64,000 bases of DNA from Abditibacteriota bacterium (GTDB lineage Bacteria > Armatimonadota > UBA5829). Made by a program: the position numbers and the translations under genes. The stretch lies in NCBI GenBank assembly GCA_017445025.1, contig JAFSVJ010000084.1, positions 1 to 64,000 on the forward strand, in the 5' to 3' direction. Under the pieces are notes generated by a model. That model had not been told where the DNA came from and did no database searches. It was given only the letters and a program-made list of their open reading frames with translations. Shown piece after piece: positions 2,263 to 63,869 of this stretch (positions are counted from its first letter, which is position 1; the number at the start of each line of letters is the position of its first letter).

Positions 2263-3702
2263 ATGGCTAAAATAACTCCTTCCCCCGGAAACAGTATTTC
2301 CGTTGTAATCAAGTATAACCAAAACGACGGAACTTTATCAAAAATAATTGAGACAATAGAATCCAACAACGGTTCTCTCGGACCTATTGACATAATCGAA
2401 TCCGAAAGAGTGACAATTATTCGTGATTTCGCTATAAACCTTGTAAAAGATACAGACTGTGCTTCTATGGTTGCCGCTCTCAAAGCTATTGATAATGTAG
2501 AGATTATTGACGTTATTGACAGAACCTTTGATATGCACATAGGCGGAAAAATCGATGTTGTTTCCAAAGAACATCTTTACGACTACGACCAACTCTCTAT
2601 GGCTTACACCCCCGGTGTTGCAAGAGTATGTAAAGCTATTGAAACCGATCCCCAAAAGGCTTTTGATTACACCATACGACAAAACACAGTTGCCGTTATT
2701 ACCGACGGAACAGCTGTTTTAGGTCTCGGTGACATAGGAGCCACAGCAGGTCTTCCCGTTATGGAAGGAAAATGTGTTCTCTTCAAAGAATTTGCAGATG
2801 TAAACGCATTCCCCATTTGTGTGGGAACCAAGGATTTTGACGAACTCTTAGCCACATGTAAAAACATTATAGGAACCTTCGGTGGTGTAAACCTTGAAGA
2901 TATTTCCGCTCCTCGTTGTTTTGACCTTGAAAGAGAACTTCAAAAAGTATCCGATATCCCCATTTTCCACGATGACCAACACGGAACAGCCACAGTTTGC
3001 GGAGCCGGTTTCATAAACGCTCTTAAGGTAACAGGCAAAGATCCTTCAAAGATGAGACTTGTAGTTTCAGGTGCCGGTGCTTCAGCTATGGCTTGCACAA
3101 GAGCCTTATTGGACCTCGGTATCGGTGACGCTATCTTATGTGACCGAAAGGGTGCATTATATGACGGTCGTCCCGACCTAACTCCCGACGGAAACAAAGC
3201 CAAATACTGGGCATCTAAGATGTTTAACAAAGACAACATGCAAGGTTCACTTAAAGATGTTTTGAAAGGTGCGGATATGTTCCTTGGTCTTTCCGGTCCT
3301 AACCTCTTAACCGGTGAAGATATCAGAACCATGAACGAAGGTTGTATAATCTTCGCTATGTCCAACCCAACTCCGGAAGTTCCTCTTGAAGACTGCTACG
3401 GTTACGCATCCGTAGTTGCCTCCGGAAGAAGTGACTATCCTAACCAGGTTAACAACGTTCTCTGCTTCCCCGGACTGTTCAAAGGACTTATGGAAGCCGG
3501 TGCAAAAATGGTGACAAGAGAAATGCAAAGAGCTGCAGCTCAAGCTATTGCCGACTGTATTGAAAACCCAACCGCTGACAACATTATCCCCGGTGCATAC
3601 ACACCCGGTATTGCAGACGCGGTTGCAGCAGCTGTTAAGAAAGTTGCCCTTGATGAGAGCATACCAAAGACACCTATATTCTTTGATTTTGATAAATTCT
3701 AA
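2263..3702 (+). CDS. NAD(P)-dependent malic enzyme with N-terminal ACT domain
   Basis: The enzyme oxidatively decarboxylates malate to pyruvate and links the dicarboxylate pool to pyruvate. The 479-residue protein opens with an ACT-type regulatory domain (about residues 1-85), a known variant of bacterial malic enzymes that suggests control by a small ligand. The malic N-terminal domain follows with YTPGVA near residue 113 and VITDGTAVLGLGDIG at about 145-159. The NAD-binding domain carries a GAGASAMA nucleotide loop near residue 270. The start is supported by GAGGCG just upstream. It is a single-gene unit with promoter and terminator. Together with the GTP-type PEP carboxykinase at 38625 it would serve the C3/C4 node. 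Whether NAD or NADP is used cannot be read from sequence. Confidence 0.94.
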   Translation: MAKITPSPGNSISVVIKYNQNDGTLSKIIETIESNNGSLGPIDIIESERVTIIRDFAINLVKDTDCASMVAALKAIDNVEIIDVIDRTFDMHIGGKIDVVSKEHLYDYDQLSMAYTPGVARVCKAIETDPQKAFDYTIRQNTVAVITDGTAVLGLGDIGATAGLPVMEGKCVLFKEFADVNAFPICVGTKDFDELLATCKNIIGTFGGVNLEDISAPRCFDLERELQKVSDIPIFHDDQHGTATVCGAGFINALKVTGKDPSKMRLVVSGAGASAMACTRALLDLGIGDAILCDRKGALYDGRPDLTPDGNKAKYWASKMFNKDNMQGSLKDVLKGADMFLGLSGPNLLTGEDIRTMNEGCIIFAMSNPTPEVPLEDCYGYASVVASGRSDYPNQVNNVLCFPGLFKGLMEAGAKMVTREMQRAAAQAIADCIENPTADNIIPGAYTPGIADAVAAAVKKVALDESIPKTPIFFDFDKF

Positions 3703-10430: not shown

Positions 10431-11477
10431 TTAATAATCTATTTTAAACAATTCGTTTTTAATAATATCATCGCTTAAATGTATATAATAATCCATGGCA
10501 ACGGATTTTTGCTTATGACCACAGGCAAGGTCTATAATGGCAAAATTAACTTTATCTTGCAAAGCCATAACAAAAGCCCTTGATAAGAAGGTGTGTCTGC
10601 AACTGTGAGTTGAATGGTTCATACCTAATTTTTTTATATATGTATTTATGGCTGAAATTATGGATATACACTTTGCAGAATTATAATCCATAAGTTTTGT
10701 GCTATCACCATAGTTGTTATTCAATAAATATTTAATAATATGTTTTATTTTTGGATGTATATAAACTTTTCTGATACTGCTTTCGGTTTTTCCGTCTCTT
10801 ACAAACATATAATCTTCTTTTAAATGGACGTCTGCTCTTTTCATATTTAGGATTTCACTCACTCTGCAACCTGTATATAATAATATTAATAATAATCTTG
10901 CATGTCTTTTGGCATATATATCACCCTTATTCAGTAAATCCCAAAGTTTCTCAATCTCTTCATAAGTAAATACACTTTGTTCTCTCTTCTTGGGGGTCTT
11001 TTGTCCTTTGCTTGATAAAAGGGAAACTATATTTTTGTCTATTATTTCATTTTTGAGAGCATATTCAAAAATCGTGTTGAGCACCATTTTGAACTGTAAA
11101 AATGTGGGTTTTGTATAGCCGGACAATTTCTCATTCAGATCCTTATATTTTATTGAATTGATTGGTGTGTTAAAAAGACTCTCTAAGGTTTTGGCAGTTT
11201 TTCTGTATACAATCAAAGTGTTTTCCGGTATGTTGTTATTGACTTTTTCTTTATATATAATATTATAAATATCTTTAAGTGTTATATGTTTTTTATTCTT
11301 ATTTCCCGCAATATAATTGTTTAAATAGTTTTCCGCTTCTGTTTTTGTGGCAAAACTGCCCAATAATTTTCTTTTCCTTTTATTATTATCTATATAAGAA
11401 GGGGTATAAACTAAATAGGGTTTATCTCTTCCGTCTTTAACTTTATAAACAGTCCCTTGATTTTGTCCCCGTTTCAT
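10431..11477 (-). CDS. Tyrosine recombinase / integrase, solitary
   Basis: A 348-residue phage-type integrase. The N-terminal part (GTVYKVKDGRDKPYLVYTPSY, LLGSFATKTEAENYL) looks like an AP2-type arm-binding domain, followed by a SAM-like core-binding domain. The catalytic domain carries R205 (TGCRVSE), probable K230, H291-x-x-R294 (HSCRHTF), H321 (ACGHKQKSVA) and a nucleophile at Y330 or Y331, so it appears active. No excisionase, relaxase or other mobile gene is nearby. It lies between the intact and truncated prepilins, next to the point where the second prepilin lost its first codons. AT-rich codon use stands out from the prepilin genes. No clear att repeat was found. Confidence 0.93.
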   Translation of the reverse strand: MKRGQNQGTVYKVKDGRDKPYLVYTPSYIDNNKRKRKLLGSFATKTEAENYLNNYIAGNKNKKHITLKDIYNIIYKEKVNNNIPENTLIVYRKTAKTLESLFNTPINSIKYKDLNEKLSGYTKPTFLQFKMVLNTIFEYALKNEIIDKNIVSLLSSKGQKTPKKREQSVFTYEEIEKLWDLLNKGDIYAKRHARLLLILLYTGCRVSEILNMKRADVHLKEDYMFVRDGKTESSIRKVYIHPKIKHIIKYLLNNNYGDSTKLMDYNSAKCISIISAINTYIKKLGMNHSTHSCRHTFLSRAFVMALQDKVNFAIIDLACGHKQKSVAMDYYIHLSDDIIKNELFKIDY

Positions 11478-20266: not shown

Positions 20267-20326
20267 TCTTCCCCCCTCTACTACGTAAGATTTAATAAAT
20301 TAATTAATAATTTTTTGGTTTTAATT

Positions 20327-20392
20327 ATGTTTTTTAGTGTTTTAATACCTGTATATAATGTGGAAAAATATCTAAGGCAAGCGGTGGATTAA
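20327..20392 (+). pseudogene. 5' fragment of a GT2 glycosyltransferase
   Basis: Encodes MFFSVLIPVYNVEKYLRQAVD and then hits TAA formed with the first bases of element E copy 2. It duplicates the start of the intact genes at 20675 and 21845, with only synonymous differences from the latter in the shared codons. Its upstream region also matches that of 21845, so it is the original 5' end. Confidence 0.88.
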
Positions 20393-20647
20393 AGAATGAC
20401 AAATCACAAAAAAGCACAATTTTTCGCAAGAAATATCCTATTGTAGTCATCGACCCCAAGGGTTCCCAGAAAATTGAGCTTAGCGAAATTTTTAGGGATT
20501 TGGGGCTGTAGACTCGGAACAAAATGTCATTTTTCAAGGCAATAGCCATTGATAAAATGTTATTTTGTGAGAATCGTCAAGAAGACACGAAAATAGATAT
20601 TTCGTTAAGCGAAAAATTAGGGATTTTTAGGTGAGTTGGTATTCTTT
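20391..20647 (+). mobile_element. Element E, copy 2 (257 bp, terminal inverted repeats)
   Basis: Left end AAAGAATGACAAATCAC and right end (reverse complement) AAAGAATACCAACTCAC match in 14 of 17 bases. The interior aligns with the copies at 33712 and 63514 (AAGGC-aata-GCCATT hairpin, GATATTTCGTTAAGCGAAAAATTAG near the right end), with an extra AAGGGTTCCC..GGGATTTGG hairpin of about 50 bp. The left end abuts the truncated GT2 fragment and the right end lies just upstream of the complete GT2 gene. No coding capacity. Confidence 0.82.
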
Positions 20648-20674
20648 AATAAATATATTTTTTAAATTTTAATT

Positions 20675-21745
20675 ATGTTCTTTAGTGTTCTAATACCTGT
20701 ATATAATGTGGAAAAATATCTAAGGCGATCGATAGATTCTGTCCTTGCCCAAGATTTTGATGACTACGAAATAATTCTCTGTGACGATGGGTCTACAGAC
20801 CAAAGCGGTGCTATCTGTGACGAATATGCCCAAAAAGATAGCAAAATAAGGGTTATTCATAAAGAAAATGAAGGGCTTATTCTAACCAGACGAGTTGCCA
20901 TAAGAGCCTCAAAGGGAGAGTATCTGATTCACCTTGACTCTGATGACTATATGCTTCCCGGATGTCTTTCTTCAGCCAAGAAAGCCATAGACGAAACCGG
21001 GGCTGATATGGTTATATGGCAGTTTATATCCGGAGTCGGTAGCCACCCGGAAGATTTGTCTCATGTTTCAACCATTCCTTTCAAAGATGGTGAAATTTTT
21101 GAAGGAGAAGGTTTGTATAAACTGAGAAAGCATTATATTCTTGCCACCGGGGACGCCCATATCGGTGCCATGTTCCAAAAGGCAACCAAAAGAGATATTA
21201 ACGATATAGATTTTGATTATCACACCTATCCAAAAATTTACTGTATGGAAGATGTGCTTCAATCTGTGGTTTTGTATAATAATGTAAAAAAAGCTGTTTT
21301 TATAAATAAACCTTTCATTTACTACAGCACAAATCCGGAGGGCATAACCCATGGTGTAACCTCCTCAAAATTGAAAAATTATATTGATACCATATTTTTT
21401 ATGTGGACCGTTCAAGATAAAATCATTGTTAATTGGTTTACCGAAGAGAGTATTTTTAAGAAAATACGAGGCCACCGAATAAAAACTCTTTTGCACAAAA
21501 TTGCTCAAATGAAACGATTGGCCCAAAAAAATGAGTTTATAGAATTTTGTGATTATATAAACAATCACGACTCTCTGCAAAAATATTATAACAGTTATAA
21601 TGATGAATTTCTTGGCAGTTATTTGAAACTAATACTGTTTTTCTTTAAAAGAAAAAAATATGCTTCTCTTTGGTATGTGATGGATATAACGGAAAAGCTA
21701 TATCCTACCCTTAAAGGTATAGCAAAAAAAATGAGGGGGAAATAA
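20675..21745 (+). CDS. Glycosyltransferase, GT2 family (copy 1)
   Basis: A 356-residue GT-A fold enzyme: MFFSVLIPVYNVEKYLRRSIDSVL, then LCDDGSTDQSGAICDEY and HLDSDDYMLPG, where the D-x-D-like SDD (near residues 92-95) binds metal and nucleotide sugar. The first ~118 residues are over 90 percent identical to the neighbour at 21845, while the C-terminal two thirds are unrelated in detail. That pattern suggests recent exchange of the catalytic half. It starts at ATG without a Shine-Dalgarno, and its 5' end now follows element E instead of the ancestral leader. Confidence 0.9.
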   Translation: MFFSVLIPVYNVEKYLRRSIDSVLAQDFDDYEIILCDDGSTDQSGAICDEYAQKDSKIRVIHKENEGLILTRRVAIRASKGEYLIHLDSDDYMLPGCLSSAKKAIDETGADMVIWQFISGVGSHPEDLSHVSTIPFKDGEIFEGEGLYKLRKHYILATGDAHIGAMFQKATKRDINDIDFDYHTYPKIYCMEDVLQSVVLYNNVKKAVFINKPFIYYSTNPEGITHGVTSSKLKNYIDTIFFMWTVQDKIIVNWFTEESIFKKIRGHRIKTLLHKIAQMKRLAQKNEFIEFCDYINNHDSLQKYYNSYNDEFLGSYLKLILFFFKRKKYASLWYVMDITEKLYPTLKGIAKKMRGK

Positions 21746-32376: not shown

Positions 32377-33621
32377 TTAATCTCTTTTAAATATATCCCT
32401 TGTATAAACCTTATCTATAACATCATCAAGACACTTGTCATATCTGTTGGCAATAATGGCTTTTGACTCTTTCTTAAACTTTTCTAAATCATTTACCACT
32501 AAACTGCCAAAAAAAGTGGATCCGTCTTCAAGGGAAGGCTCGTAAATAATCACCTTGGCGCCTTTACCCTTAACTCTCTTCATAATACCCTGTATAGAGC
32601 TTTGACGGAAATTGTCGGAATTAGATTTCATGGTCAAACGGAAAACACCGATTATAACCTCTTTCTCTTTTGAAACATCAAAATCACTGTTTTCTTCATA
32701 GGCTCCCGCTATTTCAAGGACTCTCTCGGCTATGAAATCTTTTCTTGTCCTATTGGAATTCACAACTGCCTCAATTAAATTTTCAGGCACTTCTTCATAA
32801 TTAGCCAAAAGTTGCTTTGTATCCTTTGGCAAACAATATCCTCCATATCCGAAAGAAGGGTTGTTATAATGATTTCCTATTCTCGGGTCCAAACATACAC
32901 CGTCAATAATATTTTGAGTGTTAAGCCCCTTCATTTCGGCGTAAGTATCAAGTTCATTAAAGAAAGATACTCTCAGAGCCAAATATGTGTTTGCAAAAAG
33001 CTTTACTGCCTCAGCCTCCGTATAACCCATGAGAAGACTGTCAATATTCTCCTTAAGGGCTCCTTCCTTCAAAAGCAGAGTAAACTCATTTGCCACTTTT
33101 ACAAGTCTTTTGTTTTCTGTATCAATTCCCACAATAATTCTTGAAGGATAGAGATTATCATAAAGAGCCTTAGACTCTCTCAAAAACTCGGGACAGAATA
33201 TAATATTGTCGCAATGGTATTTCTCCCTTGCATGAGCGGTAAAACCTACGGGAATAGTGGATTTTATAACTATAATTGCTTCCGGATTATTCTCAATAAC
33301 AAGTTTGATAACTGCTTCTACAGAAGAAGTATCAAAAAAGTTCTTCTTCGGATCATAGTTTGTAGGAGTGGCAACAATTACAAAATCCGCATTCTTATAA
33401 GCTGCGGCTCCGTCCATTGTGGCAACAAGGGAAAGATCCTTTTCGCTCAAATACTTTTCAATATATTCGTCATGAATGGGAGATACTCGCTTGTTTATCA
33501 TATCCACCTTTTCCGGGATAATGTCAACAGCAGTCACATTATTGTTTTGTGCCAAAAGAACACCCACAGACAAACCTACGTATCCGGTTCCCGCTACTGC
33601 AATATTATATTTTTTACTCAT
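32377..33621 (-). CDS. ugd: UDP-glucose 6-dehydrogenase
   Basis: Oxidises UDP-glucose to UDP-glucuronate with two NAD. The 414-residue protein has the Rossmann start [18 protein letters not shown] and the catalytic Cys in [15 protein letters not shown] (near residue 258), in the single-domain-pair family of bacterial UDP-sugar dehydrogenases. It follows a tail fragment of the epimerase gene by seven bases; the ribosome binding site AGGAT lies in that tail. It is the third gene of the uronate operon, now separated from the epimerase by element E copy 1. Confidence 0.94.
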
Positions 33622-33624
33622 ATA

Positions 33625-33707
33625 TTTATCCTAAATAAAATTCTTTATACCATTTGGCAAATTTTCGCAAGCCCTCACGTAAGCTTGTATTTGGTCTAAA
33701 ACCAAAA
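33625..33707 (-). pseudogene. 3' fragment of the UDP-glucuronate 4-epimerase gene
   Basis: Encodes FGFRPNTSLREGLRKFAK and on to WYKEFYLG with a TAA stop, identical in protein to the end of the intact epimerase at 33931-34010, but with several base differences, all synonymous. It supplies the natural upstream sequence of ugd. Its open end abuts the left end of element E copy 1. Confidence 0.9.
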
Positions 33708-33711
33708 GTTA

Positions 33712-33917
33712 AAAATCCCAAATCACCAAAAAGATCAATTTTTTATAAGAAATAACGAATTGTCATCACCACTCGTAGCGAATGAGTAGTGGGACAAAAG
33801 ATATAAGGCGTTAGCCATTATAAATTTTGTTTCAATACGATTGAGCGTCAGAGCCGGTAAGACAAGAGTTATTTCGTTAAATAAAAAATTAGAGATTTTT
33901 AGGGGAGTTGGAATTTT
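33712..33917 (+). mobile_element. Element E, copy 1 (206 bp, terminal inverted repeats)
   Basis: Left end AAAATCCCAAATCACC; right end reverse complement AAAATTCCAACTCCCC (13 of 16 match). It aligns from end to end with the minus-strand copy at 63514-63718, both ends being identical, while the central hairpin differs (GGC-gtta-GCC here, GGAC-aaa-GTCC there). It is flanked by 80-base direct repeats of the epimerase 3' end (33628-33707 and 33931-34010). No coding capacity. Confidence 0.88.
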
Positions 33918-33928
33918 TAACGATAAAA

Positions 33929-35011
33929 CTATCCTAAATAAAATTCTTTATACCATTTGGCAAATTTACGAAGGCCTTCTCTTAAGCTTGTGTTTGGTCT
34001 AAAACCAAAATCTCTCTCTAATGAGGATGTATCGGCATAAGTCACCGGCACATCTCCCGCTTGCATAGGCACAAGTTCCTTATGAGCCTCAAAATCATAA
34101 TCCTTAGGCAAAACTCCCGCAGAAACCAATTCCTCTTGAAGAATTTTCACAAAATCCAGAAGATTTTCCGGGTTTGAATTACCTATATTATAAATAGCAT
34201 AAGGCGGAATGGGTAAACCATCCTCCCCTACTTGCTTTGCGGGAGCTTTCTCCATTACTCTTTTTACACCTTCAACTATATCGTCCACAAAAGTGAAATC
34301 TCTCTTACAATTACCAAAGTTGAAAATCTTAATGGTTTCACCTTTTATTAATTTATTGGTAAAACCAAAATATGCCATATCCGGTCGTCCCGCAGGACCG
34401 TAAACCGTGAAAAATCTAAGCCCCGTTGAAGGAATATTGTAAAGCTTGGAATAGGCGTGAGCCAAAAGTTCATTGGACTTTTTGGTAGCAGCGTAAAGAG
34501 AAACAGGATTGTCCACCTTGTCCTCTATAGAATAAGGAACTTTTTTGTTTGAACCGTAAACGGAAGAGGAAGAGGCATAAACCAAGTGTTCCACACCCTT
34601 ATTGCCATTATCATAAGAATGTCGACAAGCTTCCAAAATATTATAAAATCCTATTAAATTGGCTTCAATATACACATCCGGGTGGTCTATAGAATAACGA
34701 ACCCCTGCTTGGGCTGCTAAATTAACAACCACATCAAAATTATATTCTTTAAAAAGTTTATCTACCAAGGCTTTATCCGCTATGGAACCCTTGACAAATA
34801 CCCAGTTATTGTCACCTTTAGCTTCTGTTTCTATAAGTCTTAATCTGTAATCTTTTATTGATGTGTCATAATAATCGTTTACATTATCCAGCCCCACTAC
34901 CTTTATGGGGTTAACTTCTTTTAAGAGTTTTAAAACCAAATTGGCTCCTATAAATCCTGCCGCTCCCGTGACTAAAACACATTTCCCTTTTAAATCTATA
35001 TTTGATTTCAT
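33929..35011 (-). CDS. UDP-glucuronate 4-epimerase-like NAD-dependent epimerase
   Basis: A 360-residue extended short-chain dehydrogenase. It has the TGAAGFIGANL nucleotide loop, the YAATKKSNE catalytic Tyr-x3-Lys, RFFTVYGPAGRPDMAYFGFT and RDFTFVDDIVEGV, the pattern of CapI-type UDP-glucuronate 4-epimerases that make UDP-galacturonate. The neighbouring ugd supplies UDP-glucuronate. It overlaps the nucleotidyltransferase upstream by four bases. The last 80 bases are duplicated beyond element E copy 1. Confidence 0.9.
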   Translation of the reverse strand: MKSNIDLKGKCVLVTGAAGFIGANLVLKLLKEVNPIKVVGLDNVNDYYDTSIKDYRLRLIETEAKGDNNWVFVKGSIADKALVDKLFKEYNFDVVVNLAAQAGVRYSIDHPDVYIEANLIGFYNILEACRHSYDNGNKGVEHLVYASSSSVYGSNKKVPYSIEDKVDNPVSLYAATKKSNELLAHAYSKLYNIPSTGLRFFTVYGPAGRPDMAYFGFTNKLIKGETIKIFNFGNCKRDFTFVDDIVEGVKRVMEKAPAKQVGEDGLPIPPYAIYNIGNSNPENLLDFVKILQEELVSAGVLPKDYDFEAHKELVPMQAGDVPVTYADTSSLERDFGFRPNTSLREGLRKFAKWYKEFYLG

Positions 35012-62492: not shown

Positions 62493-63494
62493 TCAAGCCT
62501 TAGGTATTATAATCTCCGGGTCGATTACTATATTTTTCTCTAAAGTCCATTTTTGATTAATATTATCCACAGACATATCAAACAAAGCCTTGGTTATCTT
62601 ACTATAATCCACTCTAAGCTCGATATAATCGTATTCCAAATTTAGATTCATATCACCCGAAGTGTAAATAATGAATTTACTATCTTTTATATATTCATTA
62701 TATTTTTTAAGATAATATTTAGCTGAAACAAATAAATTATAATTCATAAAAACTATGGCATCAGGAGGCTCTGTAATGGATTCAAAGCCTTTAGTTAAAA
62801 CTTTATTGGATTCCTTTTTTTCTCGGATAATATTTTGGAAAAAATAATAATAGTTTTCTTTCATATAATTACTGTAGAATTTATCTATTGTTGAACCGTA
62901 ATTGTTAAACTCATTCACAAAATCAAAAACTATCACTTTTTCAAATTTATTCTCTTCTAATATTTTTATAAGTTGCCTATGCCTTAATATTTCGTTAATA
63001 CTGACTTTTGCATAAGGGGACAACTCATTTCCAAACTCAACTATGGGAATATGTTTCTCTCTTGCTATGTCAATAAGTTTACAATTCCACTGATATAGAT
63101 TAATAATACAAGCAATTTCATTTATGTTTACAGGACACTTATCTTTAATATCTTCATAAAATACGGGAATCCATTGTGTATCTGAAAAAAGTTTATATAG
63201 GCCGGAAGATATGACAAAATTACGAATTCCAACTAATAAAGGGTCATAAAAAAATTGTTCATCTAATATAATTACAACATATCTTTTAAAAGATTTGAGG
63301 TAAGTTCCGCTGCCATGACGTCTTTCAATAATATTATCCCTTTCAAGCTCAGAGAAAGCATTTCTGACAGTCAAAACGGAAACAGAAAGCTCCTTGGCAA
63401 GATCAGCCTCGCTCTGTATCCTCTTGTCCGGGTCAAAATCATTGGTCTTTATTAAATTTTTAATATATTCAATAACTTTCTCTTTCTTTGTCAT
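62493..63494 (-). CDS. GntR-family regulator with LacI-like sensor domain (AraR-like architecture)
   Basis: A 333-residue transcription factor. The N-terminal winged helix of GntR type (KVIEYIKNLIKTNDFDPDKRIQSEADLAKELSVSVLTVRNAFSELERDNIIERRHGSGTYL) is followed by a periplasmic-binding-protein-like sensor (YVVIILDEQFFYDPLLVGIRNF; PPDAIVFMNYNLFVSAKYYL). This layout is that of AraR and similar sugar-sensing repressors. The ATG at 63494 is used because the duplicate fragment starts at the same codon. It is encoded upstream of the DUF6067-like glycosidase, its likely target. Its native promoter and first 33 codons are separated from it by element E copy 3. Confidence 0.88.
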   Translation of the reverse strand: MTKKEKVIEYIKNLIKTNDFDPDKRIQSEADLAKELSVSVLTVRNAFSELERDNIIERRHGSGTYLKSFKRYVVIILDEQFFYDPLLVGIRNFVISSGLYKLFSDTQWIPVFYEDIKDKCPVNINEIACIINLYQWNCKLIDIAREKHIPIVEFGNELSPYAKVSINEILRHRQLIKILEENKFEKVIVFDFVNEFNNYGSTIDKFYSNYMKENYYYFFQNIIREKKESNKVLTKGFESITEPPDAIVFMNYNLFVSAKYYLKKYNEYIKDSKFIIYTSGDMNLNLEYDYIELRVDYSKITKALFDMSVDNINQKWTLEKNIVIDPEIIIPKA

Positions 63495-63513
63495 AATTAA
63501 TATCACTTAAAAC

Positions 63514-63718
63514 AAAATTCCAACTCCCCTAAAAATATCTAATTTTTTGCTTAACGAAATAACTTTTGTCTTACCAACCCTGACGCTCATTCGTCTTGAA
63601 ACAAAATACCTACGGACTTTGTCCTTGCTCTTTTGCCCCAATACTCATTCGCTACGGGCGGTGACGACAATGCATTATTTCTTACAAAAAATTGATCTTT
63701 TTGGTGATTTGGGATTTT
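63514..63718 (-). mobile_element. Element E, copy 3 (205 bp, terminal inverted repeats)
   Basis: Minus-strand copy with ends AAAATCCCAAATCACC (at 63718) and GGGGAGTTGGAATTTT (at 63514), identical to those of copy 1, and high similarity throughout apart from the central hairpin (GGAC-aaa-GTCC). It is flanked by 103-base direct repeats of the GntR gene start (63394-63496 and 63722-63824), with two differences between them, both synonymous. No coding capacity. Confidence 0.9.
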
Positions 63719-63721
63719 GTT

Positions 63722-63822
63722 TTGGCAAGATCAGCCTCGCTCTGTATCCTCTTGTCCGGGTCAAAATCATTGGTCTTTATTAAATTTTTAATATATTCAA
63801 TAACTTTCTCTTTTTTAGTCAT
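63722..63822 (-). pseudogene. 5' fragment of the GntR regulator gene
   Basis: Starts ATGACTAAAAAAGAG and encodes the first 33 residues (MTKKEKVIEYIKNLIKTNDF and on to ADLAK minus the last base), then runs into the left end of element E copy 3. It keeps the original promoter at 63841-63869. Only codons 3 and 4 differ (silently) from the complete gene. Confidence 0.9.
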
Positions 63823-63840
63823 AACAATTTACCAATAAAT

Positions 63841-63869
63841 ATTATATCATATATAACCAATAATTACAA
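63841..63869 (-). promoter_or_regulatory. Ancestral promoter of the GntR gene
   Basis: Minus strand: TTGTAA (63864-63869), a 17-base spacer and TATAAT (63841-63846) with TG before it. It now drives only the fragment unless transcription reads through element E. Confidence 0.7.

Follow-up and report, generated by a model that had tools for sequence, protein, structure and literature searches.

At one end of the window (the whole 64,000-nucleotide stretch analyzed here, from contig JAFSVJ010000084.1 of an Abditibacteriota bacterium), the first codons of a GntR-family regulator gene occur twice, on either side of a short element, and only one of the two occurrences continues into a complete gene. 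How does an element come to lie in such a position, with a part of a gene on one side and the whole of it on the other?

The GntR locus and its element family

The direct repeats at this locus (63394-63496 and 63722-63824) are 103 bp long, 98.1% identical, and spaced 225 bp apart, and the intervening stretch is bounded by imperfect inverted ends of 26 bp. Their alignment score of 99, compared to no more than 20 for shuffled flanks, indicates that the similarity is not due to chance. Aligned copies of the element share one orientation, named from the B end to the A end, and in copy 3, the copy at this locus, B faces the complete gene and A faces the fragment. The complete gene is a 333-amino-acid open reading frame on the minus strand (62493..63494; Pfam GntR, E = 4.6e-13), and the B-side repeat (63394..63496) comprises its start together with the 2 bp upstream of the ATG. 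The A-side repeat (63722..63824) contains the first 33 GntR codons, truncated by the A end, after which the frame enters the element, for a total of 46 amino acids.

A preliminary description of this DNA had proposed that a gene end was duplicated over a considerable length around a mobile element, and the repeats bear this out. It had also placed the element between the repeats, which is correct, but its extent is revised here: the hairpin core spans 207 bp on the plus strand (63513..63719, with the B end at 63513 and the A end at 63719), as detected with nhmmer and by covariance model R1 (208 bits), and 16 bp of extra sequence (TTAATATCACTTAAAA, 63497..63512) separates the B-side repeat from the hairpin. 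The last four nucleotides of this extra sequence, AAAA, pair with the A flank, since the TTTT following the A end (63720..63723, plus strand) is their reverse complement; the last two of these thymines also belong to the target repeat, constituting a 2-nt microhomology. Both differences between the GntR repeats are silent, as originally stated, but they reside in codons 2 and 3 (ACA/ACT and AAG/AAA) and not in codons 3 and 4.

The GntR promoter was thought to have been stranded with the 33-codon fragment, and the best sigma-70-like site upstream of GntR on its strand does lie on the fragment side. This site, the putative original promoter (TTGTAA-17-TATAAT with a TG before the second hexamer, scoring 10/12), occupies 63841..63869 on the minus strand, reading from 63869 to 63841, and is assigned by consensus match only. 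The complete gene now begins at a distance of 18 bp from the core, and the promoter-like site is no longer its direct neighbor. A consensus-type scan detected no promoter-like site inside the element that faces GntR, so the gene may be reached by read-through from the old promoter. Judging from this arrangement of sequences, it is plausible that GntR expression has been rewired, with read-through, initiation at a new start, or lower expression as conceivable outcomes.

The source genome is a 2.85-Mb draft in 122 contigs that is 91.6% complete, and a DNA search of this genome returned 42 matches to the element. A covariance model built from 37 copies returned 99 rows, representing about 90 distinct copies. 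Two of the other copies are in the window, both on the minus strand and both with the architecture of copy 3. Copy 1 (20392..20646; 255 bp) contains an internal insert and has duplicated the start of a glycosyltransferase-like gene, with repeats within 20307-20390 and 20655-20738. Copy 2 (33711..33918) duplicates the last codons of a 360-amino-acid open reading frame, with repeats within 33611-33707 and 33914-34010 whose coding part contains 7 base differences, all of which are silent.

The family includes several variants. A palindrome-like internal insert with CCAAGGGTTCCC...AAGTTGAGCT...TTTTAGGGATTTGG occurs in the window at 20392-20646 and at L008 1672-1722 and L043 1930-2184. A 274-bp subfamily (L071, L072, L078, L083, L089, L215, L216, and L217) has the conserved ends CTTGAGTAT and ATACTCGC, and a mini-element of about 50 bp, consisting of both ends only, is often present in tandem upstream.

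Folded as single-stranded DNA, the element of copy 3 forms one long imperfect hairpin (-30.8 kcal/mol, z = -5.5), and none of 200 shuffled sequences was as stable. Across 37 copies, double changes are present in 19 of the 32 predicted pairs, and one-sided changes are few. Such covariation would fit either arms that are kept matched as DNA or the one-step template-switch correction of hairpin arms, which has been described previously (PMC8794818, PMC7202029). There was no Rfam match to the element, and the only hit, a sub-threshold miRNA match, fell outside it.

Searches beyond the source genome detected no copies of the element in 14 genomes from its family (covariance model), in 60 relatives (DNA search), or in GTDB contigs (exact core pattern). 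Nor was there a match in phage or plasmid records or in viral contigs, and carriage by phages, plasmids, or viruses was rejected on this basis. A scan for analogous hairpins with long repeats, which recovers all three window copies, yielded none in 210 kb sampled from a sister genome, where about 5 would be expected at the density of the source genome. One protein encoded in the window matches, at 75 to 82% identity, clostridial proteins from Oscillospiraceae and Lachnospiraceae, many of them of gut origin; since proteins of this type move between lineages, the match gives an approximate placement.

Long repeats and unequal junctions

Among the 82 tabulated copies, 79 have both flanks, and 56 of these 79 are bounded by direct repeats with alignment scores of at least 30, whereas shuffled flanks reach 26 at most. 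In a strictly filtered set of 50 copies, the repeats have a median length of 93.5 bp and range from 40 to 202 bp, and those of one further copy measure 233 bp, which together indicate that target duplication is long and variable. At locus L010, the duplicated segment is a 65-bp intergenic promoter-like sequence (97% identity), and so the repeats cannot be solely an effect of gene families or of adjacent related genes. In several copies, the repeats are 98 to 100% identical.

The two ends of the element meet these repeats in different ways. No more than 6 nt separate the A end from its repeat in 49 of the 50 copies, but at the B end this distance exceeds 6 nt in 30 of the 50, with extra sequence ranging from 7 to 80 nt. 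The B flanks of related copies mostly show no match beyond 5 nt, and the donor flank was rejected as the source of the extra sequence for this reason.

Empty sites were reconstructed in silico, with the A junction designated x and the B junction designated y, and genes were defined as open frames of at least 80 amino acids plus ARAGORN tRNAs, a set that is not curated. In these reconstructed sites, 26 copies have x within a gene and y outside, and 4 have the opposite arrangement (P = 1.3e-6); random placement of segments of equal lengths produces the two arrangements at 5.1% and 6.6%, respectively. In 10 further copies, y is merely 7 to 36 bp inside the next gene. The polarity that had been noted for all three copies in the window, with the A end inside coding sequence and the B end outside, is therefore also the prevailing one in the genome. 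B-end junctions occupy AT-rich sequence that coincides with gene ends or is close to them, and A-end junctions usually fall within the neighboring gene. The location of y outside genes may be due partly to selection, but selection alone would permit both polarities about equally. Genes face B with their start in 12 cases and with their end in 10, such that gene direction relative to the element is unbiased and does not point to an association with one replication strand.

The same arrangement extends to tRNA genes, which are touched by six A-side junctions (Gln, Gly, Met, Arg, and Pro, which were scored, and a second Gln), and it is on the B side that the tRNA is complete. Elements are situated at tRNA-Gln (L025 950-2150), tRNA-Gly (L041 ~3030-3360), and tRNA-Met (L043 1700-2410), and the Gln and Met loci contain several elements in a row with successive tRNA fragments.

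Differences between the two copies of a repeat are distributed 57:37:168 over the three codon positions, and 129 of the affected codons are silent and 78 changed. This silent excess is above that expected of a freely drifting fragment. Later allele exchange with other strains is its simplest account and a likely one, with import of a whole gene along with the element as the rival. Extending the latter, the B-side gene, which is complete, could have arrived as an imported allele, the element marking the junction and the fragment being what is left of the resident gene, in which case there was no target duplication at all. Such replacement would accommodate the silent excess, as well as the fact that homology ends at or near the gene end in several copies, but the intergenic duplication at L010 and the near-identical repeats reject it as the only origin of the repeats. 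Considering in addition the tRNA cases, the limited range of repeat lengths, and the ability of later allele exchange to explain the silent changes, we view gene replacement as improbable.

Copy-specific terminal nucleotides

The terminal 4 to 5 bp are specific to each copy, but the A and B flanks of any one copy are reverse complements of each other over this length. Reverse-complement identity between the A and B flanks is 96, 92, 90, 80, and 54% at positions 1 through 5 and then falls to the background of 16%, compared to 37 to 50% at positions 1 to 5 when partners are shuffled. The complementary run averages 3.96 nt, versus 0.67 nt with shuffled partners (maximum of 1.27 in 2,000 shuffles). 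Direct identity between the flanks (0.17 to 0.37) is not in excess of that in shuffled flanks (0.31 to 0.42), arguing against a short direct target duplication, a candidate that was rejected by this comparison.

The order in which the two ends were formed can be deduced from copies such as that at C121:32653, where ATTTT precedes B, AAAAT follows A, and the B flank is within the duplicated target. Because the A flank is the inverted B flank in cases where the B flank is target sequence but x lacks it, the B flank came first and the A end second. In one pair of copies, the cores are 97.3% alike but the terminal five nucleotides differ (AAACA versus TTTGA), indicating that ends can be remade at insertion; in another close pair, whose cores are 97.8% alike, the terminal five nucleotides are common to both. 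Microhomology between the A-end extension and the target at x averages 1.52 nt, as opposed to 0.77 nt in shuffled data (maximum of 1.33 in 5,000 shuffles). Later hairpin correction was rejected as the only source of the terminal 5-nt match, because even the youngest copies (those with repeats 96 to 100% identical) show it.

Two tandem copies at L054 (145-346 and 456-656; G000 C47) have the same terminal five nucleotides and repeats that are 97 to 98% identical, and perhaps represent an array formed by unequal recombination.

One way to obtain such termini would be excision of the hairpin as a single strand, with the 3' A end filled in against a 5-nt 5' overhang of B and joined by a recombinase at x, after which the 3' end of the target is extended to y and imprecisely ligated to B. 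This route predicts that the complementary extension stops sharply at 5 nt and that a precise A end is combined with an imprecise B end, but it conflicts both with the different terminal nucleotides of close copies and with the identity of the terminal five nucleotides to duplicated target in copies without extra B sequence. Moreover, the Y1 (HUH) transposase (PF01797) was not found in the 91.6% complete draft and was found in 5 control genomes, and the best match to the integron integrase (TIGR02249) reached 73 bits against a cutoff of 265, with sub-threshold matches in all 14 controls. In light of these results, we consider a single-stranded intermediate quite unlikely. Integron attC sites are also long imperfect hairpins, and they recombine as folded single strands; in contrast to integrons, no integrase exceeded the cutoff here, no cassette array was seen, and the insertions are scattered and have long duplications. 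On the minus strand of the window, at 10731-11015, a 357-amino-acid frame has a weak tyrosine-recombinase match (E = 4.9e-4).

Proposed fold-back insertion and the known systems

Retrotransposition of a short structured RNA, in a manner similar to SINEs and with variable target duplications, could generate repeats of variable length with one precise and one untidy end. Yet reverse transcriptase (PF00078, RVT_1) was not found at 91.6% completeness and was found in 3 control genomes, nearly all copies are full length instead of truncated at one end, and paired positions change without G-U intermediates, rendering this origin highly improbable. The palindromic REP, REPIN, and BIME sequences associated with RAYT resemble the element in being dispersed and located mostly at gene borders; unlike them, the present family has no detected Y1 transposase, a much longer hairpin, and long target duplications. 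Membership among retroelements of the SINE-like, retron, or group II intron kinds, REP/RAYT or IS200/IS605 elements, and integrons was rejected, as the respective enzymes were not detected.

Prokaryotic miniature elements, or MITEs (reviewed in PMC10969869), are likewise short, AT-rich, noncoding, and present in many copies, with inverted ends, AT-rich landing sites, and flanking direct repeats. With a 207-bp core that is a hairpin throughout, the element is within their size and form (less than ~500 bp, noncoding, with inverted ends), but repeats of 40 to 233 bp are present in place of a short target duplication of fixed length. The family also differs from MITEs in its asymmetric ends, its copy-specific inverted terminal five nucleotides, and the lack of a detected partner IS.

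A conventional MITE could nevertheless be mobilized by a transposase acting in trans, of the DDE class or similar, through a staggered cut of 40 to 240 bp followed by gap filling. This possibility is in keeping with the copy number and size of the element, its inverted ends, and its preference for AT-rich sites, and long staggers exist in principle, given that target duplications in the IS1202 group are reported to be 16 to 28 bp (PMC10132070). Members of that group share the unusual length of the duplications but are autonomous IS that encode a DDE transposase, and the lengths here are several-fold greater and variable. A staggered cut does not predict unequal ends, extra sequence mostly at B, or the copy-specific inverted five nucleotides, the variation in duplication length weighs against it, and no kilobase-sized element with the same ends at 3 or fewer mismatches was found in the 91.6% complete draft. 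For these reasons, we regard a staggered cut as unlikely, while according it a real chance.

Another process compared here is quasipalindrome template-switch mutation, in which the nascent strand serves as template at hairpins and the arms become more complementary in one step. It acts at existing hairpins, and PMC7202029 and PMC8794818 were not found to describe a dispersed element that moves or that duplicates the flanks of a new site.

Drawing on one draft genome, we give even chances to the interpretation that the element is a nonautonomous, MITE-like mobile hairpin inserted by an asymmetric fold-back process that depends on DNA synthesis. A growing DNA strand would leave its template at an AT-rich site, y, and copy the element from B to A; the strand would then fold back, with its A end copying 4 to 5 nt of the B flank, and re-enter the original template, or be joined to a displaced strand, at x, some 40 to 240 bp back, aided by 0 to 5 nt of microhomology. 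The segment between x and y would be copied a second time, yielding the duplication, and because y is outside the gene, one complete gene copy would survive, on the B side. The order of these steps is supported by the junctions.

More tentative, and somewhat short of an even prospect, is the specific proposal that the element spreads replicatively by a fold-back template switch, in which the 3' end is rebuilt from the element's own 5' flank (4 to 5 nt), re-entry 40 to 240 bp upstream copies the end of the neighboring gene, and insertion can spare the gene that it touches. Several features count against fold-back insertion. General template switching does not account for the sharp limit of 4 to 5 nt, the silent excess in the repeats needs later allele exchange or another history, and most members of the 274-bp subfamily are without long repeats, which occur in 5 of 16. 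The same holds for the extra B-end sequence, which the B flanks of related copies do not have in common, and for the unbiased gene direction. No report of the combination of long duplication, asymmetric junctions, and inverted 5-nt ends was found in the open-access literature searched.

Small palindromic repeats are common in bacteria, and the approximately 50 insertions in this one genome allow the steps of insertion to be ordered and tested. If fold-back insertion is correct, it would be a mode of insertion unmatched by the transposon types compared in this analysis, and it would explain how these elements can insert at the ends of genes, even where genes are densely packed, with one complete copy of the gene left.
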